Virus record (IMG/VR): IMGVR_UViG_3300038548_000036 | Coordinates: 1-25,936 of that record | Length of the DNA stretch: 25,936 nt | Reading direction: 5' to 3' (one strand) | Source: a virus | Part shown: piece by piece, positions 1 to 20,927 of the stretch | Position numbering within the stretch: position 1 is the stretch's first letter | Layout: each line of letters opens with the position of its first letter | Notes under the pieces: generated by a model | What the model was told of the DNA's origin: nothing | Databases searched by the model: none | The model's input: the letters and a program-made list of their open reading frames with translations, nothing else | Made by a program: the position numbers and the translations under genes

Positions 1-2741
1 CTCATCCCCACGCGGTTCGGTGGGCCACCCGCTCCGGCTGGTCCGGGGACGCCACGCCTAGGACGATTCATCATCCGCTGCCGTTGCATGTGACCGCGCA
101 GGTTCGGAGGAATCATAGGTCCACCTGTCACTCCACCCGGTCCTTTACCCGGTGGAGGTGCGATGGGTCCGCCTCTCGGATCGTAGCCGCTAGGTTTCTG
201 GAATCTCTGCGTCTGATTACGAAGTCGAGACATCAGGTCTCTACCACCCATCCGTTGCGTAGGATGCACTCGATCACGTGGACCGGGGAGGTTACCACCA
301 CCGGGCGGCATCATCGGGGGAGATGTTCGTCCCGGTCCTTTACCCGGCGGCATTCCTCGTGGCATGCCCCGACCTCCACCCATCGGGTTCGGTCCCGGAC
401 CTTGCCATGGAGCAGTCATTCCTTGACCACCACCGGGCATGGCACGAGGCGGAGGTGCACCGCGCCACGGCATGCCACCACCCATTGGAGGACGACCCTG
501 CATCTGCGGCGGGATGCCACCTCGACGCGGCATCGCACCTCTCATCTGCGGAGGCACGCCACCTCTCGGCGGACCTGCGAATCCTGTTGCGGAAGCCAGT
601 CCACCGTGCTGATAATTCTGAATGTAACCACCGTATGCTTCTTCCATCTCTGCTAGACCCTCGTCAATTTTGGTGGTGTCTCCGTAGTCCATGATTCTCT
701 TGTACCACGGGACATCTTCCTCAGGCGGAGGTGGGGGTGGAGGTGGAGGTGGGGCCACATGATTCCGGGTCTCCCAGTAGTTGTATCGAGCACTGTTTAC
801 TGGGTACGGATTCGCACCCTCTGCATGACCGGGACGGACAGCTCCGCCTTCCTCGTAGTAATTCACTTGACCTCCTCCTGCGTAGCCACCCGGTGGCACC
901 GCTAATGATGCTGCGACACGTGCTTTGTGTGCAAGTAATGCTCTTGAATATTCAGTGTCTCTTCCTGCTCGTGGATCTGGTGGGACGAAGGGAGGCACAA
1001 CGGGAGGCTCGACGTCAGGCGGCAGACCACCACCTCCGCCTCCGCCTCCGCCTCCTCCACCACCGGGAGGTCCACCACCTCCACCTCCGCCACGTCGTCC
1101 ACCACCTCCGCGACGTCCACCTCCACCACGTGGTCCTCGGTTAGGACCTGCGCCTGCGACTGGGTCAGTGAGTAGTGGGACGCCACCGTCGGGACGGATG
1201 TCCGGAGTGAGCGAGGGAACGGTACCCGTACCAGCTACGCCAGTCGGTTCCGGTGGGTAGTACAGCGTGTTCTTGGTGGGATCTCCTCCCTGACTCGTGT
1301 CCGCCATCCAACCACCTTCCTTAGTAAGCTTCATAAGCCGGAAGAAACCTTTGATCCCTCCGCCCAGTTTGTTGATGAGTTGTTTCTGCGTGAGTGGTTC
1401 GTTGCCTAAGTTAAAATAATCCTGAGCGTCCGCAAGCCAATCCGCATCTACGTCACCACCTTCCTGAAAATTAAGACCCGGTGCATCCATTCGTTGACGC
1501 AAATCTTCCATCGGTGCGAGTCCGCCTTCCCACATACCCGGCTCTTCTCCCGGCATGAAGATGTCTTCGCCACGGTCGTTAACACCGATGCGTCTCAGCT
1601 CGTCTGCTGTCGGCATGCGACCCAAGTCTTCGGGGGTCGCTCCGGGTCCGGGCATCATCTGCTCCATCTGCTGCTGTTCAAAGTCAGACATCTGACCCTT
1701 TGACTCTTGCGCTTGTCTCTGCAGCGCTTCGCTCCACTTGCCACGCCAGAGACGTACTTGGGACTGCGCACGGATGTAGTCAGCAATAGAGTGACCTTGC
1801 CCATGCTTTGACTGTCCGATATCTTTGAAAGTTTGCATCGCACCGATCAGTCGAGGCTTAATGAACTCTACTTGCTGCGGTCCATTCATGGTGGCGAGCT
1901 GCTCATCGATATTTGTTTTGGTTTCCAAGTTAGGAGTCGAGTTCTCCCAGCCGTAGTCGATCACTGCCGACTCTGCGTCACTCTTCGTGCCTTTCATGTC
2001 CGACAGCATTTGTTCAAGCGCGGGACCAATCTCTTCGGCTGTCTGCGGACTGTACTCTCCGGGTGCGCTCTGGTAATCCCGTTCGAAGTCACTCTTCACA
2101 CCTACTATTTCTTCCACGGTACCTCCTTCAGCACCTCCCGGTCGTGAGATATATTGTATGCGCGGATCCACAGCGGGGACGTAAGGTTGACCCGGCGTCA
2201 GGTTACGCAGTTTGTTCACAAATTGTTGACCCGGTTGACCCGGTCGTCCAGTGCCACCTACTCCTTGCGGTGGGTAAAACACAGTGTTCTTGTTGAGTGA
2301 CGTGGCGTACTTTTTGCCTGACTTTCCTTTCGCTCCTTGCACGCCTTTACGTGTGGCGCTAGGGGTATCTGCATACCAACCAGCACGCACAAGGTTACGA
2401 CGCTTGTCGGGGTTCTTGACACCAGTCATGATCTCGTCACCCCACTGACCCTTCTCCTGCAGGCTCGCCGCACGCTTACGACGTTTGCGTTCCTTCTTGT
2501 TAATTCCCTTCGCGCTATAAGACCCCGGTGCCATCAGATCGTACAGCGCGAAACCCTTATTCTTGGTTGCCCCCCAGTTACCAACCCACGACCTGCCACC
2601 GGTCGCCATGTGCAATGCACCTTTGTCGGCTTCATGAAATTCGGAAGCAACACCTTGAGAGATGCCTGCCTTCGCAGCGAACTTAGGATTGTTCGCAGCA
2701 GCTGCCATGAACTTGCGTTGCTTATCTGATGTGCTAGGCAT
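1..2741 (-). CDS. Large low-complexity virion-type protein, 3' end off the window
   Basis: An uninterrupted reading frame of 913 codons starts at ATG 2741 and is still open at the left edge, so the C-terminus is missing. The start overlaps the preceding small-terminase-like gene by 8 bases. The N-terminus (MPSTSDKQRKFMAAAANNP) resembles a short domain I associate with phage virion proteins. Residues 122-165 and 478-506 are two copies of one motif with cores NKNTVFYPPQGVGGTG and TKNTLYYPPEPTGVAGTG. Residues about 534-572 are an Arg/Gly tract ending in 13 glycines, and 664-673 are ten prolines. From about residue 710 on it is rich in Gly, Pro, Met and Arg, with repeats such as GGVPPQM and GGIPPQM. 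Double-glycine motifs (EEGGAV, QHGGLAS) match those in neighbouring ejection-type proteins. The function is unknown. A structural or ejection role is inferred from position only. The frame was checked at both ends and at 692. Confidence 0.85.
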   Translation of the reverse strand, partial: MPSTSDKQRKFMAAAANNPKFAAKAGISQGVASEFHEADKGALHMATGGRSWVGNWGATKNKGFALYDLMAPGSYSAKGINKKERKRRKRAASLQEKGQWGDEIMTGVKNPDKRRNLVRAGWYADTPSATRKGVQGAKGKSGKKYATSLNKNTVFYPPQGVGGTGRPGQPGQQFVNKLRNLTPGQPYVPAVDPRIQYISRPGGAEGGTVEEIVGVKSDFERDYQSAPGEYSPQTAEEIGPALEQMLSDMKGTKSDAESAVIDYGWENSTPNLETKTNIDEQLATMNGPQQVEFIKPRLIGAMQTFKDIGQSKHGQGHSIADYIRAQSQVRLWRGKWSEALQRQAQESKGQMSDFEQQQMEQMMPGPGATPEDLGRMPTADELRRIGVNDRGEDIFMPGEEPGMWEGGLAPMEDLRQRMDAPGLNFQEGGDVDADWLADAQDYFNLGNEPLTQKQLINKLGGGIKGFFRLMKLTKEGGWMADTSQGGDPTKNTLYYPPEPTGVAGTGTVPSLTPDIRPDGGVPLLTDPVAGAGPNRGPRGGGGRRGGGGRRGGGGGGGPPGGGGGGGGGGGGGLPPDVEPPVVPPFVPPDPRAGRDTEYSRALLAHKARVAASLAVPPGGYAGGGQVNYYEEGGAVRPGHAEGANPYPVNSARYNYWETRNHVAPPPPPPPPPPEEDVPWYKRIMDYGDTTKIDEGLAEMEEAYGGYIQNYQHGGLASATGFAGPPRGGVPPQMRGAMPRRGGIPPQMQGRPPMGGGMPWRGAPPPRAMPGGGQGMTAPWQGPGPNPMGGGRGMPRGMPPGKGPGRTSPPMMPPGGGNLPGPRDRVHPTQRMGGRDLMSRLRNQTQRFQKPSGYDPRGGPIAPPPGKGPGGVTGGPMIPPNLRGHMQRQRMMNRPRRGVPGPAGAGGPPNRVGM
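1026..1142 (-). repeat. Arg/Gly and poly-glycine codon tract
   Basis: In the left-edge gene this stretch of GGN and CGN codons encodes RGGGGRRGGGGRRGGGGGGG, then PP, then 13 glycines (1026-1064). The Gly codons alternate among GGT, GGA and GGC, so this is protein-level selection for glycine rather than a simple nucleotide expansion. It produces the poly-proline frame seen on the other strand, which is not a gene. Confidence 0.75.
1224..1310 (-). repeat. Copy 2 of internal protein repeat (left-edge gene)
   Basis: Residues 478-506 of the left-edge protein, with core TKNTLYYPPEPTGVAGTG beginning at WMADTSQ. It matches residues 122-165 at 2247-2378, which have core NKNTVFYPPQGVGGTG beginning at WYADTPS. 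The two copies share W-x-A-D-T, K-N-T-hydrophobic-Y-P-P and G-V-x-G-T-G. Copy 1 carries about 15 extra residues between the two parts. Confidence 0.7.
2247..2378 (-). repeat. Copy 1 of internal protein repeat (left-edge gene)
   Basis: Residues 122-165 of the left-edge protein: WYADTPS, a lysine/glycine insert, then NKNTVFYPPQGVGGTG. It pairs with copy 2 at 1224-1310. The duplicated motif is embedded in otherwise dissimilar sequence, which suggests a small repeated docking or binding element rather than a whole-domain duplication. Confidence 0.7.
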
Positions 2742-3300
2742 CGTCTACTTCTCCGGTGCGCCCGTCGATCACTGCGTTGTCGGGCTTCGGGTGAATCAGT
2801 GACAGGATGCTGGACATGACTTCCATCTTCGTCTCGTCACGAATACCAATGGGTGCTCCTTCCTTACCGCTGACTTGAGTCTCACGACGGTCGGACCAGT
2901 TCTGCTTCTGACGGTTGGTCAACCACAACTTGATTGCTTGCACGTCAGGTTTGTAATGCTTGATGGTGTCGGCACGGATGACTTCACCGTCCCACATCAT
3001 TATCTTTTCTTCGTCGTGCGTGTAGCCGGTCGCTGTCTGGAACAGAGCGTTCAGCACCGCAGCATCTGCATCGGTGTAGCCCTGCTCGACAGCCTTCTTG
3101 AAGTGTGGGTACTGTGCCTTCCAGATACCCATCTGCCTGCGACTGATGTCGAACACCTCGGAGATGTCGTCCTCGTCCATGCCGTTCATCATGATCGCGC
3201 GGATCTGATCTGGGAAGTCAGGCAGGAATACACGGGAGCCAGCTGGCATTATCTGCCCATGGTTATTTCTCGCCTTGCGATTGATTCTCTTGGCTGGCAT
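2734..3300 (-). CDS. Putative small terminase subunit (helix-turn-helix DNA-packaging protein)
   Basis: This 188-residue protein starts at ATG 3300, sharing one base with the preceding TAA stop (TAATG). After a basic N-terminus (MPAKRINRKARNNHG), residues about 30-70 look like a helix-turn-helix of the kind in small terminases, with DDISEVFDISRRQMGIWK as the recognition unit. It is followed by the common layout of an alternating helix (FKKAVEQGYTDADAAVLNAL), then TGYTHDEEK, then KPDVQAIKLWLTNRQKQNW. The WLTNR-x-x-x-x-W block is typical of terminase small subunits that recognise the packaging site and hand DNA to the large subunit. It lies at the downstream end of the structural genes rather than beside capsid genes, so the large terminase may lie further left. 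The alternative is another HTH regulator, but the C-terminal block argues for terminase. Confidence 0.7.
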   Translation of the reverse strand: MPAKRINRKARNNHGQIMPAGSRVFLPDFPDQIRAIMMNGMDEDDISEVFDISRRQMGIWKAQYPHFKKAVEQGYTDADAAVLNALFQTATGYTHDEEKIMMWDGEVIRADTIKHYKPDVQAIKLWLTNRQKQNWSDRRETQVSGKEGAPIGIRDETKMEVMSSILSLIHPKPDNAVIDGRTGEVDDA

Positions 3301-5936
3301 TACGGTGGTGGCTCCAGAGTTTCTTCTACCATTTCCGTCAGACGTTCAGTCATGTCGGGACCTCCTTCCTCTCCGGCTCCCGGAGTAGCTGCCCCTAGAT
3401 TCTCTCTCAGTTGATCTATCAAACCGGGCTCCCGTGTCTGCCCCATCACTTCTAAGGCCTCATCAGAGAGGTAGACTTTCCCCTGAGGATCGTTCTCGGT
3501 CAAATCCTGCATGTACTGTCGGCCACCTGCCATGAGCAGCGGCGTGAGTTCTCTCATGATGGCATCTTTCGCACGCACATCAGGTCCGATGTGGTACAGC
3601 CGCAGAAACAAGTTACGAATGGGTGCACTCTGATAACCATGACCCAACAAACCAGCGATGCCTAAAGTTGCAAAGTTGACAGCGTTCCCAGCAAAGGTAC
3701 CGAAGCCTCCTGCCGCAGCTATACCGACACCTTTACCCAAGCTCTCTACCTGAGCAGTCATTCTCAGGTATTCCAACATGCCGTCGAATTCTTTTGCGGG
3801 GAAGAAACCTCTAATCTGTCCCTCAACAGAGTCACCTGACATATACTTTAGGAAATCATTAGGAGAAACGAGAGCTTCACTTGCTGCTGTTCGACGCCAA
3901 CCGGCGAAGCGCATAGCATCATGCAGGATCCATTGTTGTGCTGCTCTCTTACCCTCTGGGCTGAGGTTGTCACGTAGAAGTTTTATGTCGTCAACATTTC
4001 CTCGGCGCATAACTCTTTCAATGACTGCTGAATCGACCTCGCCTGATTTGATCACAGCTCTAAGAGATTTACCCTCCGCTGCTGCAACGAGTTCCGCCTC
4101 TTTAGCAAGACCAGACAACCATTGCTGTCCTGCATCACCACCTTGCTCTCGTGCTGCAAGTTTAAGGTCTGCCTCCAATGCGTCAGCAACCTCATTAAGT
4201 GCCACCCGTACAGCAGGCTTTCCTGAGGATGCTTCCACTCTCAATCGTTGCAGCCAGTCAGAAATGTGACCGAACCCACGAGCGAAATCTTGTTCCTTAC
4301 CTCCCTGCCACACAGCGTTACGAGCTGTGTTCAATACATCAATAAGAGCGGGGTCTGCCAGATCTCCGTATTTTTCTTCGGCTTTAATGAGATCATACAT
4401 TTTGAATCGGAAATCTCTGATGTTGATCCGCATCTCTGGATTGTCAGCCATTACTTGCACTGCTTCATCAGCCTGTGCACGTGCAACGTAAAGCGCGTCA
4501 CCTGTGGCACCACTCAACTCTTTGAGAACCTTGGCACCGTAGTTGGTGACCGGATCAACCCCAAACCTATCTGCCACATAACGTATAACTTCAACACGTT
4601 GTTCCTTTTGAGCGGCACGAACACCACCGGTACCGGTAAGGAACATACGCTCAACCACCTTGAGCAGGATCTTCATCCGTGGGGAGTGCATCTCAGGGAT
4701 TGCGTCTTCCGTCATGACTTTCGCGGGACGTCCAGACTTTAACCAGTCTGCAGCCTTCTCAGAAAACTCGATGACCTCGTGCTTGAACGCAGGAATGACA
4801 CCAGCCAATCCTCGCGTGTGCCTCTCTACAAATTCCCCCGTCCCTTTCGTCCAAGAGCTGGGGATATAACTGCCGATGAATTTACCTGATCGTTGAACCA
4901 AACCAATCGCAGGACGTGCTATATCGATGAGAGGACCGAGGCCTGCACTCAACGCGACATCCATGTCATCGAACTGACCTCCCACTGCTTCATGTCCTGC
5001 TTGGATAACAGTCTCAGTCAGACCTGCGGTGCCAGCACCAACCATCATGCGAGGGAGTGTGGATTTCATAGCTGCGGTAGCTTTACCGGCAGGCGTAAAC
5101 GCAGCAGCAAGACCAGCTCCCTGCATCACATCCATCTTGCTCACGCCGGGAGCATTAATCATTGCTCGCGCACCGTTGATTCTATTGCTAACGAGGACAG
5201 TTCCATCAGGCGCGTGCTGAATATCAAACTGCGGCCATTTACGCTCACCCGTTTCCGGATCCACTTGCGTCAGCATCTGTGCAATCTCTGAAGGGTCGAA
5301 CATGGTGAGTGCTGCGGCAGAGATCAGGGCTTGGTCTGCCAGCGACATCCCCTCACCCATACTTGACCCTGCGCGTATGGTTTCGCTACCTTCCATCTCT
5401 TTGAGCGACAGCATCAAACCCACTCGCTCGAAGAAAGTCAGGTCCGGATTGTCCAAACGCTCTGACATTCTTTCGTAGGCAGGATTCATGATGGTCTTGC
5501 CCGTGAACATCTCGGGCAATGATTCCATTGCGAGTTCACCTTCGGCATTCAGAATGGGGATCTTCTTCCCCTCCGGACCTAAAGCATGTTCACCAGTTTC
5601 AGGATCTATTTCGTAAGAGCCTGCCGCTGCAGCCGACGCTCCGGGCTGCAACGGGAATTCACTCATGCCTCTATTTTTCTGGCGAATGTCTTCAAGGCTC
5701 ACGCCCCCAAGCGTACCTTCGCGCATGATTTCCAACCCAGTGTCTTGACCGAAGCCAACCGGGTCTTGTGCTGCCTCACCCATCCAGCCTAGGTCAGTAG
5801 CACGTCCCAGATCTTCGCCAACTGCACGATCAGAACGCTGCTGTAGGATTTCACCCCACTCACCACGTTCCGGTGCAGCAGGTTCTACTGGAGCAGGTGT
5901 TAAAACTTCTTCTTCGATGAGATCTTCGTCTGCCAT
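3300..5936 (-). CDS. Large internal virion / DNA-ejection-type protein
   Basis: This 878-residue protein begins with an acidic, proline-containing N-terminus (MADEDLIEEEVLTPAPVEP), and its ATG overlaps the previous stop as TAATG. Most of the chain looks helical and charged. Two long Ala/Gly-rich hydrophobic stretches stand out: about residues 264-320 (QGAGLAAAFTPAG, then RMMVGAGTAGLTETVI) and about 733-768 (GVGIAAAGGFGTFAGNAV, then TLGIAGLLGHGY). A large helical protein with glycine-rich membrane-compatible segments, in the same run as three similar proteins downstream of tail genes, fits an internal core protein ejected with the genome, as with the ejection proteins of T7 and P22. No lysozyme or protease motif was recognised. 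The tail end is again acidic (EEGGPDMTERL, then EETLEPPP). The family was not identified with certainty. Confidence 0.75.
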   Translation of the reverse strand: MADEDLIEEEVLTPAPVEPAAPERGEWGEILQQRSDRAVGEDLGRATDLGWMGEAAQDPVGFGQDTGLEIMREGTLGGVSLEDIRQKNRGMSEFPLQPGASAAAAGSYEIDPETGEHALGPEGKKIPILNAEGELAMESLPEMFTGKTIMNPAYERMSERLDNPDLTFFERVGLMLSLKEMEGSETIRAGSSMGEGMSLADQALISAAALTMFDPSEIAQMLTQVDPETGERKWPQFDIQHAPDGTVLVSNRINGARAMINAPGVSKMDVMQGAGLAAAFTPAGKATAAMKSTLPRMMVGAGTAGLTETVIQAGHEAVGGQFDDMDVALSAGLGPLIDIARPAIGLVQRSGKFIGSYIPSSWTKGTGEFVERHTRGLAGVIPAFKHEVIEFSEKAADWLKSGRPAKVMTEDAIPEMHSPRMKILLKVVERMFLTGTGGVRAAQKEQRVEVIRYVADRFGVDPVTNYGAKVLKELSGATGDALYVARAQADEAVQVMADNPEMRINIRDFRFKMYDLIKAEEKYGDLADPALIDVLNTARNAVWQGGKEQDFARGFGHISDWLQRLRVEASSGKPAVRVALNEVADALEADLKLAAREQGGDAGQQWLSGLAKEAELVAAAEGKSLRAVIKSGEVDSAVIERVMRRGNVDDIKLLRDNLSPEGKRAAQQWILHDAMRFAGWRRTAASEALVSPNDFLKYMSGDSVEGQIRGFFPAKEFDGMLEYLRMTAQVESLGKGVGIAAAGGFGTFAGNAVNFATLGIAGLLGHGYQSAPIRNLFLRLYHIGPDVRAKDAIMRELTPLLMAGGRQYMQDLTENDPQGKVYLSDEALEVMGQTREPGLIDQLRENLGAATPGAGEEGGPDMTERLTEMVEETLEPPP

Positions 5937-7225
5937 TACTCTGCCTCAGTCGGGAAAGGTTTCTCCCCGTAAGGAGAACCCCAGTGATCAATGCGATAGA
6001 ATTTGTCACCCGGCTTCAACTTGTCGTAATCAGCCCTCGTCTTAACGAAGATGGCATCTGGTGCGAATTTGTACCCTCCGACGGACTCCCACAAATCTGC
6101 AACGGAGTGCATGTAACTCCGCTTGTCAATCGCAGACGTCGAATTTACCGAAGCGAAATAAGCTTCGCGGATACCTGTGCGAATTGCATTCGTGTAGATG
6201 CCCTCCATTTGTTTCAGCATGCGATAGTTCGCAGTCGTGTTCTGCCCCATGCCGACGGAGATGCCTTTCATTTCCGCGAGGTCTTTGTCGGACGCTGGAC
6301 CTTTTAAATCTGCCAGTTTATCGAGATAGTCCTGAGCAATCCGCATCTGTATTTCAGTCAACTCAACGGTGTCACCAAAGTCAATGCCAAGCCAATTCGC
6401 GGCACGATTCTTCAGGTGTTGGATACCACTGGTCTTAATTATAGTATCCGCATTTTCGATAAGCCTGTTCACCTCCCTGATATTTAGAAGCGGAGCCCTC
6501 CGTCCGTACGCTTCATTGATAAAATCTTCACTGCGACCGGTCGAAGCCTGCGCTCTCTCGGCTGCTCGGATAAGTGCAGCTGCACGCGCAGGATCTAATT
6601 TCGATGCCGCTTCAAACATCGTACCGTCTGCACCTTGCAAAGGTGTCAGCTTCAGACCCAGCTCGGGTGCTTCCGGATCTACTTGCATCGCACCAAAGAC
6701 GATGCGCTGATTCTCGACTTCCTTACCCATGTCAGCAGGGTGCACCATCGTTTGGATAGCACCGTGAATAGCTTTGCCTGCAGCCCCATGCCCAGCTAGC
6801 TCAAGCATTTGATCGACAGCCTCGCTCTCCATAGCGGTCTCAGCAGCCACCATGTCCATCATCCGCTCATCGTGAGCTACTTCAGCATCTGCTCCTCGCG
6901 CACGTTCGTCACGTATTGCACCTGCAGCCATGCCGACGTTCTCGCCGAACGCACCCGTCTGCGTCGGTGATAACATTGCCTGCGCCATCGCAAGCCACTT
7001 GTCCTGTTTCTCCCGCTTACGTGCGTCATCCCGACGGGAAGATAAGTTTTCACGTGTTGCCCGCAGACGCTCAATCGCATTCTGCTTGTTCATCAGGATC
7101 ATGGTAGACAAACTCTGCCCTGCTGCAGGGTTAGTCGCACGTTCGACAAGTTGCTCAGACGTAATGGCTTGCTCCTCCTCTGGAGGAGTGAGGGTAGTCG
7201 CTTGCTCTAATGCGCCGTTTGCCAT
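5936..7225 (-). CDS. Internal virion-type protein, helical
   Basis: This 429-residue protein starts with MANGALEQATTLTPPEEEQ. The longest frame extends 24 residues upstream, but that would overlap the previous gene, whose stop lies only 4 bases before this ATG, so 7225 is preferred. Residues about 40-150 are charged and helical (RATRENLSSRRDDARKREKQ, then MAQAMLSPTQTGAFGENVGM, then ERARGADAEVAHDERM). The AMLSPTQTGAFGEN block is one I associate with a conserved environmental-phage family next to other ejection proteins. The C-terminus carries TRADYDKLKPGDKFYRID, resembling a short 'LPpGxxYxxPdG'-like tail motif seen at the end of many phage virion proteins (from memory, tentative). No enzymatic motif was found. 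It is probably part of the internal core or tail lumen. The stop overlaps the next gene as TAATG. Confidence 0.75.
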   Translation of the reverse strand: MANGALEQATTLTPPEEEQAITSEQLVERATNPAAGQSLSTMILMNKQNAIERLRATRENLSSRRDDARKREKQDKWLAMAQAMLSPTQTGAFGENVGMAAGAIRDERARGADAEVAHDERMMDMVAAETAMESEAVDQMLELAGHGAAGKAIHGAIQTMVHPADMGKEVENQRIVFGAMQVDPEAPELGLKLTPLQGADGTMFEAASKLDPARAAALIRAAERAQASTGRSEDFINEAYGRRAPLLNIREVNRLIENADTIIKTSGIQHLKNRAANWLGIDFGDTVELTEIQMRIAQDYLDKLADLKGPASDKDLAEMKGISVGMGQNTTANYRMLKQMEGIYTNAIRTGIREAYFASVNSTSAIDKRSYMHSVADLWESVGGYKFAPDAIFVKTRADYDKLKPGDKFYRIDHWGSPYGEKPFPTEAE

Positions 7226-7229
7226 TTGC

Positions 7230-8498
7230 TTAGTCCTGTTTCCATTGCAGTTCGATATCTTTCTTGTCAGCCTCGTCGTTAGCCAACGTGTGACCACCTA
7301 AGACGCCGATGCTGTCGGTCGTGTCGGGACGAAGTTTTTGTGCCCATGCACTCAACCCACCCCACGCACTTTTCCCAAGCCCGTACATCTTCTTCCACGC
7401 TGCCGTGGCGAGACCTCCTATCCCGTACTCCTGTTCAGGAATGTATCCGCCCTCAGCTAATGCTTTTGGGGACACATACCCACCCTCCGCATCTGTTAAG
7501 CCACGATAAACACCGTAAGCACCAACCATCTGCGACAACGGTGACGGCTGATAAATACTTGCCGGTCCATAGTCGGTACGCGTTGCTGTTCTGTCCATCG
7601 GCAAGCCACGAACCATTTCGTTCATGAAGCCCAACCTTTCGAACGGCAGGTTGCGTTGTTCGAGGAAGTCTTGGTATGCAAGGTCCAAACTCTGTTGTTC
7701 CTGCTGCTGTTGTTGCGCACCGATGCCTTCCATTGATGCAGCGTCCATGAGACCCATGCCCTGAGCAGCTTCGCCCATTTGACCAAGACCTTGGGCTCCG
7801 GCGTACATGCTTGCTGCACCAGCTTCTTCGAGTGCCCCTGAAATGCGTGCCAGCTCGCCTTGTCGCGACATGTCGGCACCAAAGATGTCTGCGCCCTGAC
7901 CGTACGCTCCGGACAGTGCTTCGAGTCGTTGTGCTTCGAGACCTTCCTGAATGTCGCGCACGCCTCGGATACCGACTGACTCCATCGAACCGGTACCACC
8001 ACGAGAGCCATACTGTCCTGCACCACCGAACATGCCAGACAGTTGCGGCATGAAATCTTCTTCCAGTGTTCGGGTAGCCATCTGCTCCTGTCGGTCGAGG
8101 ACGCCACTGATGTACGGGTTCATGTACGACTCGGCGACACCTTCATCCGTCCACTGTTTTCCACCTGCTTCGAGGTAAGGAGATGCCGCGCCATAGATGT
8201 TCGCAGCGCGATCCAGTCCGCCCATGTAGCCTGCAGTTCCTGCTTCCATGTAGGGTTGCCACGCACCGACGTTCGCTTCGACCATGCCGAACGCAGCTTG
8301 CTGCTCCGGCGCGAAGCCAGCGATCCTCGGACCACCGTAAGGAATGTACGGCTCAGAAGCGGCTGCATTCGCTCGCGCGATCAGTCCCTGCGTGTAATCC
8401 GACATCCATTTGGGAATGTTTTCAACCGTCTGCCCCCACGTTGTAGTGGACTGCGGAGGCTTTCCTTCAAACAGAAAGTCGGCAATGTTGTCAGCCAT
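7230..8498 (-). CDS. Internal virion-type protein with NPY and double-glycine motifs
   Basis: This 422-residue protein starts MADNIADFLFEGKPPQST, its ATG sharing one base with the previous TAA. Residues about 50-170 contain YIPYGGPRIAGFAPEQQAAF and, further on, ESYMNPYISGVLDRQEQMAT. The latter is a pattern I recall in conserved virion proteins of environmental tailed phages. The middle is Ala/Gly/Gln-rich, with a short polyglutamine patch (QQQQQEQQ) near residue 260. The C-terminal part has three closely spaced double-glycine motifs (EGGYVSPKALAEGGYIPEQ, then GIGGLATAAWKK) that resemble ones in the 642-residue protein upstream and in the protein at the left edge. It sits in a four-gene run of large proteins between the tail nozzle-like gene and the small terminase-like gene, so an internal or ejected role is inferred. 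No catalytic motif was seen. Confidence 0.75.
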   Translation of the reverse strand: MADNIADFLFEGKPPQSTTTWGQTVENIPKWMSDYTQGLIARANAAASEPYIPYGGPRIAGFAPEQQAAFGMVEANVGAWQPYMEAGTAGYMGGLDRAANIYGAASPYLEAGGKQWTDEGVAESYMNPYISGVLDRQEQMATRTLEEDFMPQLSGMFGGAGQYGSRGGTGSMESVGIRGVRDIQEGLEAQRLEALSGAYGQGADIFGADMSRQGELARISGALEEAGAASMYAGAQGLGQMGEAAQGMGLMDAASMEGIGAQQQQQEQQSLDLAYQDFLEQRNLPFERLGFMNEMVRGLPMDRTATRTDYGPASIYQPSPLSQMVGAYGVYRGLTDAEGGYVSPKALAEGGYIPEQEYGIGGLATAAWKKMYGLGKSAWGGLSAWAQKLRPDTTDSIGVLGGHTLANDEADKKDIELQWKQD

Positions 8499-10426
8499 TA
8501 CGCTCTCCCTGCCGCAGCTCTAAGCCTTGGCATGTAGCTCGCAGGCGACCTCGCTTTGTGACTGAAGCCACCCTTGCTCAGGTTCTTCGCTTTGTGCATC
8601 CGAATTTCCCTGCGCATCTCATCCAACCGTTTCGCTCCCGCGTCACCGGATCCGTCACCCAAGAGTGACACCGTTTCTGCGTCTATGACGTACTCACCGT
8701 CGCTCAGTCGCGCCGGGATGTCGTCGGACCTACCAGTGCCCGGTCCTTTAACATAACGCCCTGCGGCGCTCACAGTGGGACTGATGCGCTGTACGTCGGC
8801 GTTCTGAGCGAAGTGATCGAAGTGACCTCCACGCTGGAAGCCAGTGCCTTGCCCAAGCTCTGGCGGAGGTGGCATCCACGTGCCGGTGTTCTGATCCAGA
8901 TTGTAGCCAGCTGCTCGCAGTCGGCCACCATTACCCCGGACCATGTTGGCTGGAACAGGCTGACCTTGTGCCATCAGCGCAGCGATCTGATCTTGTGCTC
9001 CCAGTCCGCCCGTCGGACCCGGTCCAGCTGTTGGCGTGCCAGTCTCTCCAGCGAAAGGATCTGGAGTGATGAACAAGCTCTCACCTGTCTGCGGTGCTCC
9101 TGCCCTGCCGTACGTGTAGTACGCGTTCGGATCTGTCGGGCCAATGAACTGACGCTGGCTATCGTAGATCGGCAGTGACTCCAACATGTGCGGTGGCAAT
9201 TCAGGAGGTGGCTCTTCTTCGTACTCACCACCCTGCAGTGCACCCATCATAGTCATGGCTGGGAGCGCGTACTTCATCAGATCGCTCTGACCACCCGTCG
9301 GCGGAGCTGCTGCTGGAGGAGGTGCTCCAGCAGAGGCAGCGGCAGGGGCTCCTGTGCCAGCAGGGTATTCGCCAAACACATCTTCGGTAGTCTGCACCGA
9401 ACCTTCAGGGACCGGACTCATAGGTAACGGAGCATCGAGGCTGATCAGATCTTGTGAAGCTGGGTCAGCAACAGCCGACAGCGCACCCGTTTCAGTGGGC
9501 CGCACTGCCATGATGCCACCGGCACCCGGATCTTCGAGATTGAATAGTTCCTGACCTCTCTCGGTGATGCCCTCCATCGTTGGCTGCATCATCTGACTCA
9601 TTGCGCCCTGCATAGCACCCGTTGCGAAGTCACCACCGGTCAATTCGGCACCTGCGCCACTGGCGAGGCTTGAACCGATGAGAGCTGCAGTTGAGTCCTG
9701 CAATCCGGGAGCAATATCTTTCACGAAGCCACCCGCGACGTCGCCGAGACCTCCAGCGACAGCACCAGAGATTGCACCCGTTGCAAAGTCGCCACCACCT
9801 GCTGCGGACAGGCCACCTCGGACTACTGCATTACCGATGATACTCGCCGCAGCACCTGACCCACCTCCGGTCAACAGGCCACCGACCCACGTACCCAGTC
9901 CGGGTGCGAAAATGCTCAGTGCAATTGGAGCAACGATCTGGAAGATCTTGGATTCGAAGACTTTCTTCACTGCCTTCTTTACTTTCTTCCAGATCTTGGA
10001 GAAGAATCCGTACTCAGGCATGCCGGTGTTCGGGTTGACGTCGGCCTTGCCCCACATTCCTTCGAGAACGCCCAACTCTTCAGGCGTCATGTGCACCATC
10101 ATCGAGTCACCGTTGCGTCCGCCTTTGCGTGTCGTCTCAGCAGCTTTCGCCAGACCACCCTCGGCCTTATCGACGTAGCCACCGATCTCGTACAACTTCA
10201 CCTTCTTGGCGTCGCTCGTAGCCATACCCGCTTTCTTCATCATCTCTGATATAGCAAACGAGTAGAGCAACTCAGGACCACCGGGGACGCCCTCGATCAG
10301 TTCAGCAGCATCAACGATCTCTTTGTCGCCACCTTGTTCTGCCAGCATGGGAGCAAGACCGCGTCGTGCACGGATTGCCGCTCCGGCGTTAGCCTCTTCG
10401 GGTGCAGAATTATTTCGTGTAGCCAT
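8498..10426 (-). CDS. Large virion protein with glycine-zipper-like region; probable ejection protein
   Basis: This is read as 642 residues from MATRNNSAPEEANAGAAI at 10426. The frame is open for 70 more codons upstream, but those lie over the 89-residue gene, whose stop is 4 bases before this ATG. Residues about 65-95 hold IGGYVDKAEGGLAKA. About 140-175 is a basic stretch (KIWKKVKKAVKKVFESKIF) leading into a long Gly/Ala hydrophobic region (about 155-290) with two copies of GGDFATGA (GGDFATGAISGAVAGG and GGDFATGAMQGAMSQ), a glycine-zipper pattern able to pack in membranes. A Pro/Ala linker (PAAASAGAPPPAAAPPTGG) follows. The C-terminus contains GPGTGRSDDIPARLSDGEYV and DAETVSLLGDGSGDAGAKRL, a block I associate with many environmental phage virion proteins. 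A role in genome ejection is inferred from the amphipathic helix, the zipper region and the context. Confidence 0.75.
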   Translation of the reverse strand: MATRNNSAPEEANAGAAIRARRGLAPMLAEQGGDKEIVDAAELIEGVPGGPELLYSFAISEMMKKAGMATSDAKKVKLYEIGGYVDKAEGGLAKAAETTRKGGRNGDSMMVHMTPEELGVLEGMWGKADVNPNTGMPEYGFFSKIWKKVKKAVKKVFESKIFQIVAPIALSIFAPGLGTWVGGLLTGGGSGAAASIIGNAVVRGGLSAAGGGDFATGAISGAVAGGLGDVAGGFVKDIAPGLQDSTAALIGSSLASGAGAELTGGDFATGAMQGAMSQMMQPTMEGITERGQELFNLEDPGAGGIMAVRPTETGALSAVADPASQDLISLDAPLPMSPVPEGSVQTTEDVFGEYPAGTGAPAAASAGAPPPAAAPPTGGQSDLMKYALPAMTMMGALQGGEYEEEPPPELPPHMLESLPIYDSQRQFIGPTDPNAYYTYGRAGAPQTGESLFITPDPFAGETGTPTAGPGPTGGLGAQDQIAALMAQGQPVPANMVRGNGGRLRAAGYNLDQNTGTWMPPPPELGQGTGFQRGGHFDHFAQNADVQRISPTVSAAGRYVKGPGTGRSDDIPARLSDGEYVIDAETVSLLGDGSGDAGAKRLDEMRREIRMHKAKNLSKGGFSHKARSPASYMPRLRAAAGRA

Positions 10427-12263: not shown

Positions 12264-14552
12264 TCATGAGATGTTGTCGTTCTCCGAGACTTCAAAGAAG
12301 GAAGGCTGGAGGATCGTAGTGTTCACAGCACTGGCTGTGTTCTGTGCAAACTGCAAAGCGAGAGTTCCCGCCAGCGTAGCGTGTGACTCAAAGGTAAACT
12401 CAATCAGCACACAGTTTGTCCCTGTCTCCATCGTGGTGATGTTGATTTCATTAAAGGCACTCAGCTCTACGTCTGTCTCTACCGTGCTGACGGCAGACGT
12501 GGACGTCCATATGGCAAACCCTGTTTCTTCCGGTGTCTGGCTATAGTCCAGAGCGAACTTAATGTCAGCCACTGTGGTTGAAGACCAGAAGATGGTCGCC
12601 TTGCATTTATAACGTCGAGCGGGAGCGATGTGGTAGTTAGATAAGTTGCCGATGTTAGCGAGGACATCGTCGTTATTCATTACATCAAGAGCAAGAGTAG
12701 CTCTGCGCTGCATCCCATCAATCCTGTAGTCATTACCAGAATCATCCTCAAAGTGCATCGTGTTCGGATTCGTGCCGACTACATTGGGACCATCACTCCA
12801 AAGCTGACCAAACCCTCCAACCTGTGCTTCAGGACCACCCGACCGCTCGCCTAAGAAGATAGACCCATTCGTGAACCTCCAAATCTCATCGGTCTGGAAG
12901 TGGAAGATAGTGCCACCGGAGGAAACGAGGAAAGCAGTCCCCCCTCCTACGAACAGTTCTACTTGATCAGCTCCACTCGATGCGATGAAGCTTTGACCGT
13001 TGTTAGTTTTAATATCTCCCGCTACACCAATTTCAATGTTTCCTCCAGCATCAACCCAACCACCAGAGCCATCCCCCTTCAGCAGACGACCGAGTGCTGC
13101 GCTCGCTCCGACATCGCTGCCGGGAATCGTGATTGTCTTCGTCGAACCGACACCACTTGCCGTTACACCTGCCCCTACGAAGTCGAGCGTGTCTGCCAAC
13201 GTCGCTAACGGCACACCTTCGTCTTCAATGGTGATACCCGGCGAGGCCAGATCGACGATGTCTTGAATCGTCGCTTTGTACGTCAGATTGTCATCGATGT
13301 CCTCGAACGCAATGAAGTCACCTACGACAGGTGTTGGTGTCACGTTCGCACTGTTGATGTCGAGGATGAGCGTGCGGTCTCCTGTTAGGTCACCACCACC
13401 ATCCAGTCCAGCACCTGTATTGATCAATCGGCCTTCAGGAGGTACTTCCAAGTTGATTTGTGCACCACCGGGAGTCGTCGCACCCGTGCCACCCTGTCCA
13501 ACGGTGATCGGGAACGCCACACTGGTGGATGACGTTGCGTTGATCACGTCGGTAGCATCGGAGTAAAGGATTACGCTTTGCCCTTGCGGGACAGTTATCC
13601 CGGCACCAGCAACTGTGCTGACCTCCAGCGAAAAGGCACCGCTCGTCTGGTTGTCTGCCCAGTACTGCTGCGTCGTATTCGGTACGACGATGCGTCGGTT
13701 ACCCGTCAGTGCGCCCGTGAATCGATACGAGATCCTGTCGAGGTTCGCACCAGAGAGCACGAAGTCACCAGAGCCCGGTACCGCAAGCGACACGAAGTCG
13801 AACGCGATGACCGAAGCGACCGTCAGACCGATGGTGTACCAGTCAACGCCGTCCGTGAAGATGAACGTACTGCCATTCGGATCGAGGTTAAGACTCGATG
13901 CTCCATCGATGTCGCCAGACGGAGGTACGATGTTGAGCGTACCGCTGCCGGAGTTGCGCAGCATAAAGAACCAGTTGTTGCCAATGTCAACCGCTCCCGC
14001 ACTCGGCAAGTTACAGGTGCCTGCACCTGCGATGTAGATGAGACACTTCGCTCGATCACCAGTGACCACGGTAAATGGTGTCGCAGCTTCCTCATCCGAA
14101 TCAATAATCTGGTTGAGTTGTGAGCCGTCAGCTTCGAGTCCATCACCTGCTAACACGGAAGCAGACGCTGGGGTGGCTGCATTGCCCCCCAAAAGGAACG
14201 TGGTCCACAAGCCCATGTCCGTGGTGTTGTCAGTCAGTATGATGACCCACTGCTCACCGGGCTGCACATCTTGAATCGTGCCGCCTGTGACATCACGCAC
14301 AGTGAACGTGTTCCCGCCAACGTTATTGAACGTCGCCTTATTACCCAGCGAGGTGTTCCTCGCGTCGGGCATGTCTATGTTGAGTGCCGGAGCCGTAGTG
14401 TTGACATCCATGACATCCGCAACGACGTCGCCGCCTGTGATCTGCTGCTCAGTCGGCCATTGCAAAACAACATCGATGGCTGTTTCGAGTTCGAGATAAC
14501 TGACCCTCGATGGGAAGATCAGGTTGCCTCCAAATACGTCGGTATAAGACAT
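12264..14552 (-). CDS. Tail-fibre-like protein with GGTGAT and EDEGVPLA modules
   Basis: This 762-residue protein starts MSYTDVFGGNLIFPSRVSYL, its ATG sharing a base with the adaptor stop (TGATG). It is rich in Gly, Thr, Asn, Val and Ile, as fibres are. Recognisable pieces in order are an N-terminal beta domain, a segment with LIYIAGAGTCNLPSAG and GSTFIFTDGVDWYTIG, the collar motif VGQGGTGATTPGGAQINLEV seen in many phage tail fibres, then TGAGLDGGGDLTGDRTLILD. Next comes ITIEDEGVPLATLADTLDFV with GVGSTKTITI, a module shared with two other fibre-like genes in this window. The C-terminal about 140 residues look like a globular beta domain (ALDYSQTPEETGFAIW) and may contact a receptor or cap a trimer. 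Position between adaptor and nozzle genes suggests it attaches to the tail. Receptor specificity cannot be inferred. Confidence 0.8.
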   Translation of the reverse strand: MSYTDVFGGNLIFPSRVSYLELETAIDVVLQWPTEQQITGGDVVADVMDVNTTAPALNIDMPDARNTSLGNKATFNNVGGNTFTVRDVTGGTIQDVQPGEQWVIILTDNTTDMGLWTTFLLGGNAATPASASVLAGDGLEADGSQLNQIIDSDEEAATPFTVVTGDRAKCLIYIAGAGTCNLPSAGAVDIGNNWFFMLRNSGSGTLNIVPPSGDIDGASSLNLDPNGSTFIFTDGVDWYTIGLTVASVIAFDFVSLAVPGSGDFVLSGANLDRISYRFTGALTGNRRIVVPNTTQQYWADNQTSGAFSLEVSTVAGAGITVPQGQSVILYSDATDVINATSSTSVAFPITVGQGGTGATTPGGAQINLEVPPEGRLINTGAGLDGGGDLTGDRTLILDINSANVTPTPVVGDFIAFEDIDDNLTYKATIQDIVDLASPGITIEDEGVPLATLADTLDFVGAGVTASGVGSTKTITIPGSDVGASAALGRLLKGDGSGGWVDAGGNIEIGVAGDIKTNNGQSFIASSGADQVELFVGGGTAFLVSSGGTIFHFQTDEIWRFTNGSIFLGERSGGPEAQVGGFGQLWSDGPNVVGTNPNTMHFEDDSGNDYRIDGMQRRATLALDVMNNDDVLANIGNLSNYHIAPARRYKCKATIFWSSTTVADIKFALDYSQTPEETGFAIWTSTSAVSTVETDVELSAFNEINITTMETGTNCVLIEFTFESHATLAGTLALQFAQNTASAVNTTILQPSFFEVSENDNIS

Positions 14553-17902: not shown

Positions 17903-18747
17903 TAGCTTAGTCCTGCTCCTGCGATCTTCCACCTAGTTGCAGCGATCTTTTGTGCCACTGCTGCTCCACCTGCTGCCAATGATCTTGTACCGGTAGATGC
18001 GTCGTCCGCAAAGATCAACGTGTCGGTTGTGATTGCGATGCTAAACGGATTGACGCCGTCATTGTCCCAACCTAGGAGTGTTCCTATCGGATAAGCAACG
18101 GCACCGTTCGCAGGGATGGTCATTGTCTGGCCTGCATTAGCGCCAGTGAAACCAACCGTCTGACCCCTGTCACTTAAGATGCCAACCCGACTAACAGTTG
18201 TCGAAATGATCCCGGAGATTCCTGATCCCGCAGGCTCCGAATATGCACCCGTCTCATCGAGGTAATCTGTCGCTGCACCAGCAGAACTCAACACAACCCC
18301 GTTCGTTGGAGAATTGTAAACACCAGTCTCATTGAGGTAGTCGCTAGCAGCTCCTCCATCGTTCAACGTGACTCCGTTGACACTGACACCTGTGATTGCT
18401 GCGTCAAGGTTGACAACAGGATTGATTGGATCCCCAGCATTGACGCTGATATTTACTCCGCCAACGACCGAGTTAACCACCCCTCCACCGGAGATCGTGA
18501 TTGTTTTCGTCGAACCTGCACCGCTCGCTACGACATTGGGACCGACAAAGTCCAGCGTCGTCGCTCCACCCGCAAGAGGAACACCTTCGTCCTCAATTAC
18601 GATAGCGGAGGATATGTTTATATCGTCAGCCGCAATCTTACGACTGACTGTAATGCCAGCCTCGATGGTTTGCACTTCGAAGAAACTGTTAGGTCCGTCC
18701 AACGGCAACGTCGCAAGTGGCAGACCTGAAATAAAGATGTTAGGCAT
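17902..18747 (-). CDS. Short fibre-like protein with duplicated modules
   Basis: This is read as 281 residues from MPNIFISGLPLATLPLDGPN. An in-frame extension of 34 residues would overlap most of the end of the previous gene, whose stop this ATG already overlaps by 8 bases. Residues 49-85 are the EDEGVPLA module (IVIEDEGVPLAGGATTLDFV, then GAGSTKTIT). About 91-176 are the VVGGVN module (NSVVGGVNISVNAGDPINPV, then LDAAITGVSVNGVTL), followed by DYLNETGVYNSP and DYLDETGAYSEPAGSG, a tandem repeat. The C-terminus (RVGILSDRGQTVGFTGANAG, then TMTIPANGAVAYPIGTLLGW) is a beta domain I recall at the end of several phage fibre or appendage proteins. Homologous modules occur in 21417-23903 and 12264-14552. 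It is probably a tail- or capsid-attached fibre. Confidence 0.8.
   Translation of the reverse strand: MPNIFISGLPLATLPLDGPNSFFEVQTIEAGITVSRKIAADDINISSAIVIEDEGVPLAGGATTLDFVGPNVVASGAGSTKTITISGGGVVNSVVGGVNISVNAGDPINPVVNLDAAITGVSVNGVTLNDGGAASDYLNETGVYNSPTNGVVLSSAGAATDYLDETGAYSEPAGSGISGIISTTVSRVGILSDRGQTVGFTGANAGQTMTIPANGAVAYPIGTLLGWDNDGVNPFSIAITTDTLIFADDASTGTRSLAAGGAAVAQKIAATRWKIAGAGLS
18368..18471 (-). repeat. Fibre module copy (VVGGVN/GVSVNGVTL), short fibre gene
   Basis: This 104-base segment aligns without gaps to 23650-23753 in the large fibre gene. By hand count 81 of 104 bases agree. Both encode VGGVN, I-N-P, VNLDAAITGVSVNGVTL-type sequence. The similarity at both DNA and protein level shows common ancestry by duplication or recombination between fibre genes. 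Confidence 0.8.
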
Positions 18748-20288: not shown

Positions 20289-20927
20289 CTATTTTTTTAT
20301 GCTGCCACCTCTCGCGTACCCAACGCTGCCACCTTTGCACTTGACGTTCTTCGGCATGCCTGCCTTCGAAGCTTGACGTGCATTTTTGGGTGCTTTCAGT
20401 TTATGCTTACCGTGCAAAACTTTTTTGGCATGTTTAAGAGCAGCATCAGCCAGTGCACCACCACCAGAACTAGCCGCAGCTTTCATGTAGCCGCCCTTTT
20501 TCAGTCCCGGCTTCAAACGTCCAGTGCCACCAGCTTCTGCTTCGGCCTGATTGCGGGCATTCTTCCCGCGACGAGCGGGCTGAACACCATGGTCCATGGT
20601 CTTCTGCTTGCCCTTCTTCATCTTGAACTCATCGGAGGTGTCGCCGCTCGCACCGTACTTCTTCACCTGACCACCGTACTTGTAGCCCATCTTTGCGCCA
20701 GCTTTCTTCAGCTTGCCGTGCATGCCGCCTTTCATGTAACCACCTTTCGCACGAGGCGTCGTGATCGTCACATCATCGACTTGGATCTCACGCTCTGGTC
20801 CCATGAAGCCGCCTGCCATTTTCTTCACTGGACCACCACGTTTGTAGCCCTTGACGCGAGAACCAGTGAAGCCCTGTTCCGAAGGGAATTCAAATTCCCC
20901 GTATGTTAATCCAACGTTCCGTTTCAT
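20289..20927 (-). CDS. Basic KGG-repeat protein
   Basis: This 212-residue protein starts MKRNVGLTYGEFEFPSEQGF, its ATG overlapping the previous stop by four bases (ATGA). It is very rich in Lys and Gly, with repeated [K/R]-G-G motifs: YKRGGPVKKMAGGFMGP, AKGGYMKGGMHGKLKKAG, MGYKYGGQVKKYG, LKKGGYMKAAASSGGGA, and the terminal KCKGGSVGYARGGSIKK. The high positive charge suggests binding to packaged DNA or to acidic virion proteins. Proteins of this type occur in many environmental phages (from memory), with no settled function. The motif spacing is irregular, so these are short linear motifs rather than a folded tandem repeat. The gene lies between a helical protein and the neck adaptor-like gene. 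Confidence 0.75.
   Translation of the reverse strand: MKRNVGLTYGEFEFPSEQGFTGSRVKGYKRGGPVKKMAGGFMGPEREIQVDDVTITTPRAKGGYMKGGMHGKLKKAGAKMGYKYGGQVKKYGASGDTSDEFKMKKGKQKTMDHGVQPARRGKNARNQAEAEAGGTGRLKPGLKKGGYMKAAASSGGGALADAALKHAKKVLHGKHKLKAPKNARQASKAGMPKNVKCKGGSVGYARGGSIKK

Follow-up and report, generated by a model that had tools for sequence, protein, structure and literature searches.

The 25,936-nucleotide stretch of DNA analysed here (the window) comes from a podovirus-like record of an uncultured virus; a 37.7 kb record (G001) is nearly identical to it, and the named genes of the window all lie on the minus strand. A first-pass annotation had pointed to a loose double-glycine pattern, [charged/aromatic]-GG-hydrophobic, recurring in several otherwise dissimilar virion proteins, which raises the question of whether these proteins are recognised by a shared partner, for example for co-packaging into the capsid, or are instead processed at such sites. 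How phages select proteins for the head and for entry into the host has been worked out in detail in only a handful of systems, and a defined seven-residue element turns the question of a packaging signal into a point-mutation experiment.

An anchored double-glycine motif

The peptides named in the first-pass annotation are all present, within a few bases of where it had placed them. The loose pattern as such exceeds chance only weakly in individual proteins, however, and several of its instances (for example AEGGYI and KAEGGLA) are half matches that lack the aromatic residue. It was dropped as weak and replaced by an anchored pattern, fixed from position-specific counts around GG. In these counts, an aromatic residue is found at position -3 of the glycine pair 27 times in the KGG proteins (3.8 expected), 45 times in the ejection proteins (20.7 expected) and 18 times in the g01 family (6.4 expected), while the excess of aliphatic residues at position +2 is strongest in the KGG group (64 versus 14.9 expected). 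Fibre proteins show neither the aromatic peak at -3 nor the aliphatic peak at +2. The sharpened motif, [YF]-x-x-G-G-x-[VILMA], is seven residues long, with tyrosine or phenylalanine three positions before the glycine pair and a hydrophobic residue two positions after it; it was selected after inspection of the KGG family in the same 16 records that were used for counting. No described motif of this kind was found in the open-access text of the literature.

Motif-carrying proteins of the window

The full motif occurs in g01, g05, g06 and g21, none of which has a Pfam domain above the cut-off. The first of these (3..2741, minus strand) encodes a glycine-rich protein, adjoins the small-terminase gene (g02, assigned by a PHROG match) and is truncated by the edge of the window; its full length in the near-identical record is 941 residues. 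It carries the full motifs FQEGGDV (1449-1469), YAGGGQV (864-884), YEEGGAV (837-857) and YQHGGLA (594-614) and the peptide EAYGGYI (621-641), all on the minus strand, and its 40 N-terminal residues match the virion-protein PHROGs 22033 and 25121. A 42-residue module, MPSTSxKQxxFMAA..NPKFAxKxGxxQxVxxxFxxADKG, forms the g01 N-terminus (window 2616-2741, minus strand). The same module heads a small KGG protein encoded by a distant podovirus (L084, 17408-17737) and stands almost alone as PHIKZ165.1 of phiKZ, which is 81% identical to the L084 copy over 42 residues.

The ejection block lies on the same strand. It comprises g03 (3300..5936), a P22-type DNA transfer protein (phrog_770, 3.7e-23) without the motif, and g04 (5936..7297), an ejection-block protein in which the full motif is absent from the window copy and present in relatives as FARGGRV, FARGGVV and FQNGGLA. 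It continues with g05 (7230..8498), a DNA ejection protein (phrog_4287, 7.9e-13) whose C-terminal tail contains DAEGGYV (7473-7493, minus strand), LAEGGYI (7440-7460, minus strand) and the full motif YGIGGLA (7407-7427, minus strand). The adjoining g06 (8498..10426, minus strand) is an ejection or tape-measure-like protein with the full motif YEIGGYV (10172-10192) and the partial motifs KAEGGLA (10148-10168) and FQRGGHF (8819-8839), as well as a tape-measure-type C-terminal module identified by a PHROG match. Its length of 642 residues is counted from a homologue-supported ATG: the open reading frame begins at GTG 10636, its upstream part overlapping g07, and the start at ATG 10426 is favoured because several homologues begin near residue 71. 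The C-terminal GPGTGRSDDIPARLSDGEYVIDAETV module of g06 is common to the tape measure proteins of Salmonella, Escherichia, Mycobacterium and Arthrobacter phages.

The remaining carrier, g21 (20289..20927, minus strand), is a basic protein of 212 residues encoded between g22 and the adaptor-like g20 and spanned over its whole length by KGG repeats. Its full motifs are YKRGGPV (20826-20846), YKYGGQV (20664-20684) and YARGGSI (20298-20318), all on the minus strand, and it has about six half motifs besides. Elsewhere in the window, g10 matches the PHROG of an SU10-type adaptor, and the tail- or fibre-like g09, g18 and g23 share the sequence E[DE]EGVPLA...LDFVG...ASG.GSTKTIT (13113-13226, 18481-18594 and 23454-23567). 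Homology and gene order suggest that the motif carriers are virion proteins, and those of the window, through g05 and its neighbour g03, resemble the DNA ejection and transfer families of P22-like phages. Polyvalent proteins unite more than one known enzymatic or LPD domain in a single chain; the carriers of the window do not, and are not recognisable as polyvalent.

Enrichment in internal and injected-type proteins

Within the window, the motif occurs nine times in g01, g05, g06 and g21 (1.75 expected; g04, which contributes none, is counted in this group because its relatives carry the motif), a number reached by 0 of 1000 shuffles that preserve the GG pairs. The other genes of the window, with three occurrences against 1.96 expected, are at chance level. 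In the 16 records of relatives, for which the expected numbers are means of shuffles keeping the GG pairs, it is found 28 times in the KGG family (1.7 expected), 22 times in the g01 family (3.7), 19 times in the g05 family (5.4), 16 times in the g06 family (4.9) and eight times among eight homologues of the g04 family (0.96). Replication genes, a majority of which were assigned through PHROGs, have none against 3.2 expected, the ten homologues of g03 none against 2.0, and the fibres seven against 17.7, fewer than expected by chance. Homologues are counted repeatedly here, so that the fold enrichments are descriptive rather than independent tests. These composition-preserving controls agree with the attribution of the motif to virion proteins in the first-pass annotation, in that structural and ejection genes contain it in excess and replication genes not at all. 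They also bear on the simplest explanation, that the motif recurs because the proteins are rich in glycine. Such an origin would fit the weak excess of the loose pattern, but the GG-keeping shuffles lie far below the counts in the carriers and above those in the fibre and replication genes, and we regard it as extremely improbable.

A further 16 full records gave 15 occurrences in polyvalent proteins (1.3 expected) and 12 in g06-like proteins (3.8 expected), and none in the portal, the large terminase, both adaptors and the stabilisation protein. The g05-like proteins outside the window's clade contain two in the full records (3.6 expected), most having none at all; since these and g03 lack it, the motif is not required for a protein to be an ejection protein. 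Nor is it concentrated at the termini: 21 occurrences lie near C-termini, against 16.9 expected, and only eight of 283 sites fall within 25 residues of the N-terminus, against 16.2. The motif occurs for the most part in particular internal or injected-type proteins.

Conservation of the anchors

The expectation that the motif positions would be kept in homologues is borne out by the alignments, in which GG is retained at the main sites in all or nearly all homologues, together with the aromatic and hydrophobic residues, while positions -2, -1 and +1 vary. The motif columns of g21 are retained in six to seven of seven homologues, and the GG at the YEIGGYV, KAEGGLA and FQRGGHF places of g06 in nine of nine. 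Among g05 homologues from the window's clade, the C-terminal tails vary both in sequence and in length and retain two to four GG units. Copies within one genome use different codons; in a wider set, 118 of 124 copies are distinct in DNA and their glycine codon use is that of the genes in general, which shows that they are not recent DNA copies of one another. Variable codons, background glycine codon use and conserved anchors together indicate that selection acts on the peptide.

These results weigh on the possibility that the motif is a passive, flexible joint, spread through the swapping of modules and devoid of any binding role. The gain or loss of a module in polyvalent proteins can fall exactly between two copies, as a joint of this kind would lead one to expect: L186 contains, between FAGGGVV and FAGGGPV, a module that is missing from L180. 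A plain linker, however, needs neither an aromatic residue at -3 nor an aliphatic one at +2, and the fixed anchors weaken the idea, as do the divergent DNA of the copies and the absence or rarity of the motif in fibres and other modular proteins. We consider a passive joint rather unlikely.

Capsid neighbourhoods and polyvalent proteins

A separate set of 80 capsid-gene neighbourhoods, fetched by capsid similarity, shows that the place of g21, in the interval between capsid and adaptor genes, is shared by the KGG-type genes of relatives. In many loci, a gene with three to seven copies of the motif follows the capsid gene at a distance of 1-2 kb and precedes the adaptor gene. Several have a large gene with two to four copies about 5.5 kb upstream of the capsid gene, and at one locus, where the capsid gene is incomplete, an upstream large gene has up to six. 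The downstream proteins are recognisably related in 104 of 136 pairs and hence are not independent inventions. At their 270 GG sites, an aromatic residue occupies -3 in 96 cases (11 expected) and an aliphatic residue +2 in 92 (27 expected), and no comparable peak is seen in the other open reading frames of the fetched capsid loci. The residues flanking the motif in the KGG protein carry a mean charge of +2.1.

KGG-position proteins contain differing small modules joined by GG motifs, among them DUF6496 (L104, 13184-14797) and, as judged by eye, a DUF6496-like stretch (L078, 7533-8294). The capsid proteins of the window's clade (L064, 7860-8786, and others) have a conserved [YF]xxGG[VT]L of their own (TFDAGGVLF), which the other clade is without; a beta-hairpin turn together with chance may account for it, or it may be the form that the motif imitates.

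Among the large carriers of relatives, one (L146) contains an SLT domain above the cut-off and an ART-PolyVal match below it, and another contains a domain with a plasmid homologue annotated as LPD23. In the polyvalent protein that was inspected residue by residue, the motif copies lie between the modules. The 35 open reading frames with the LPD23-type domain contain 76 copies (12.9 expected), as compared with 13 (16 expected) in the other open reading frames of the same loci; a motif-bearing protein served as the seed of this set, and close homologues therefore inflate its counts. The useful control is that a majority of the divergent viral homologues, and the homologues from three plasmids and two cultured phages, contain no copy or one; L208 (three) and L213 (four) are exceptions. 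The flanks of the copies in polyvalent proteins are acidic, with a mean charge of -2.4.

Polyvalent proteins are predicted to be packaged and injected (Iyer et al., 2017, PMC5512222), and the words ‘glycine' and ‘linker' do not occur in the text of that study. Its authors propose that these proteins are processed by metallopeptidases. This proposal and the location of the motif between modules in those polyvalent proteins that were inspected would accord with a form of the processing suggested in the first-pass annotation, in which a protease cuts at or near the GG and so frees the modules of polyvalent and internal proteins. In 13 related records, however, no C48 (Ulp1-like) protease was found over the cut-off, the one sub-threshold C48 match (in G007) lying in a frame interrupted by a stop; the C39 peptidase (PF03412) was likewise not found, nor was the S78 prohead protease (PF04586) in these possibly incomplete records. 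The missing proteases weaken the case for cleavage and speak mildly against it, although a protease that escaped detection or one supplied by the host could act instead. The KGG protein, moreover, would end as small pieces. Processing is in our estimate distinctly unlikely.

Limits of the distribution

The motif is not a general feature of phages, an idea that was rejected on the chance levels seen in P22 and several cultured phages: in P22, HTVC010P, HTVC019P, HMO-2011, CRP-901, HTVC023P and QDWS535 it is at or below the number expected by chance. GB2A, which has many genes in common with the window, has almost none. Copies are present in the expected places in the Manatee Spring contig ctpbd312 and in phage 023Pt_psg01 and, in small number, in DSL-LC04 and Pag-Yong1; the genome-wide totals of these four aquatic phages are not all above those of shuffles, and it is the placement that is notable. 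In Pag-Yong1, a cultured Planktothrix phage, YAKGGAV and YASGGMI fall in the capsid-adaptor interval and YAEGGAL in the ejection block; the cultured Pelagibacter phage HTVC027P likewise has the motif in the expected places. When KGG sequences were compared with cultured phages by tblastn, two queries gave no match and one found only the Manatee Spring contig.

A possible docking tag

What the sequences show directly is how the motif is distributed, which residues it consists of, how it is conserved and that its copies in the polyvalent proteins examined fall between modules. As to its function and partner, we infer from the sequences, with slightly less than even confidence, that it may act as a multivalent tag by which internal and injected proteins are docked or packaged, with the KGG protein as a possible hub. 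The motif would then be a short linear one, [YF]-[A/K/x]-x-G-G-x-[V/I/L/A], repeated in probably flexible linkers and tails, in which hydrophobic anchors at -3 and +2 flank a Gly-Gly turn and the residues between and around the anchors vary, with a charge that follows that of the protein they belong to. Before DNA is packaged, such a tag would recruit ejection proteins, proteins of the g01 type and polyvalent cargo to the head or hold them together there. With three to seven copies and flanks of about +2, the basic KGG protein might serve as the hub and also contact DNA, and the acidic copies of the polyvalent cargo, with flanks of about -2.4, might be its clients. The opposite flank charges of KGG and polyvalent copies are compatible with a hub but no proof of one. 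Co-packaging through a putative shared partner suits the types of carrier found (ejection proteins, a basic protein of the capsid-adaptor interval, and polyvalent proteins predicted to be injected). A broader version of the same reading, a portable packaging or docking code for the injected proteins of aquatic phages, in which motif counts predict injected effectors and the KGG hub reads the motif, seems to us doubtful. If it is true, injected effectors could be picked out by means of the motif in the genomes of environmental phages, whose genes are mostly unassigned.

A family confined to motif-rich records was considered as a candidate partner; the best was the g09 fibre family, present in 77% of motif-rich and 12% of motif-poor records, and it was dropped as confounded by kinship. 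A common origin of g05 and g06 by way of an EYG...WKK module found no support, as an HMM of the g06 segment misses the g05-family proteins of the window's clade; the same HMM gives a weak match (E 0.011) to a KGG protein, over the motif itself. AlphaFold models of g05 and g06 (pLDDT 40 and 49) are too poor for the structure of the motif to be described, and a fold search with the g06 model gave no significant match. The motif segments are of low confidence in these models and probably flexible.

The same multivalent, aromatic- and glycine-containing copies might instead adhere to one another, pairing as weak beta-zippers, so that no dedicated receptor would be needed to condense the internal proteins and the DNA. 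The opposite charges of the KGG and polyvalent copies and the presence of the element in many proteins would suit such self-association as well, but low-complexity stickers do not usually require a spacing as strict as the one conserved for the anchors at -3 and +2, and we think self-association unlikely.

Comparison with known systems

Adenovirus and African swine fever virus have GG-specific proteases (adenain and pS273R, respectively) that act on Gly-Gly-X sites. As in the window and its relatives, GG recurs there in a number of unrelated proteins of the core, basic ones included. The present motif differs in having its anchors at -3 and +2 rather than a hydrophobic residue at P4, in a copy number that is high for simple maturation, and in the lack of a matching C48 protease over the cut-off in the 13 records. 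It also differs from double-glycine leader peptides, the substrates of C39 peptidases, in that its sites are not N-terminal and the peptidase was not found in those records.

RGG and KGG boxes belong to nucleic-acid-binding proteins. The KGG protein resembles them in being basic and in having aromatic residues near GG; unlike such boxes, the motif has a fixed anchor spacing, and not all of its carriers have basic flanks, as the charges of the KGG and polyvalent copies illustrate.

The likeness to polyvalent proteins (Iyer et al., 2017) lies in the carriers of some relatives, which have SLT and ART-PolyVal domains or an LPD23-like domain, and the difference in the plasmid homologues of the LPD23-like domain, which are without the motif.

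The closest parallels in function would be the packaging signals of T4 and P1. The internal proteins of T4 have only their capsid targeting sequence (CTS) in common (PMC3012670). For P1, the first 30 residues of DarB suffice for packaging, and a common packaging signal of the Dar proteins was suspected by the authors, although BLAST gave no consensus (PMC9024508). In T4, and perhaps in P1, a short element is common to diverse proteins that are packaged and injected; the present motif recurs in otherwise unrelated proteins that are probably packaged. The T4 and P1 signals are N-terminal, in contrast to the internal, repeated copies described here, which lie between modules, and the CTS is removed by a prohead protease, of which the S78 type was not seen in the 13 records. 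By position, therefore, the motif is not a CTS, but by analogy it could play a CTS-like role.
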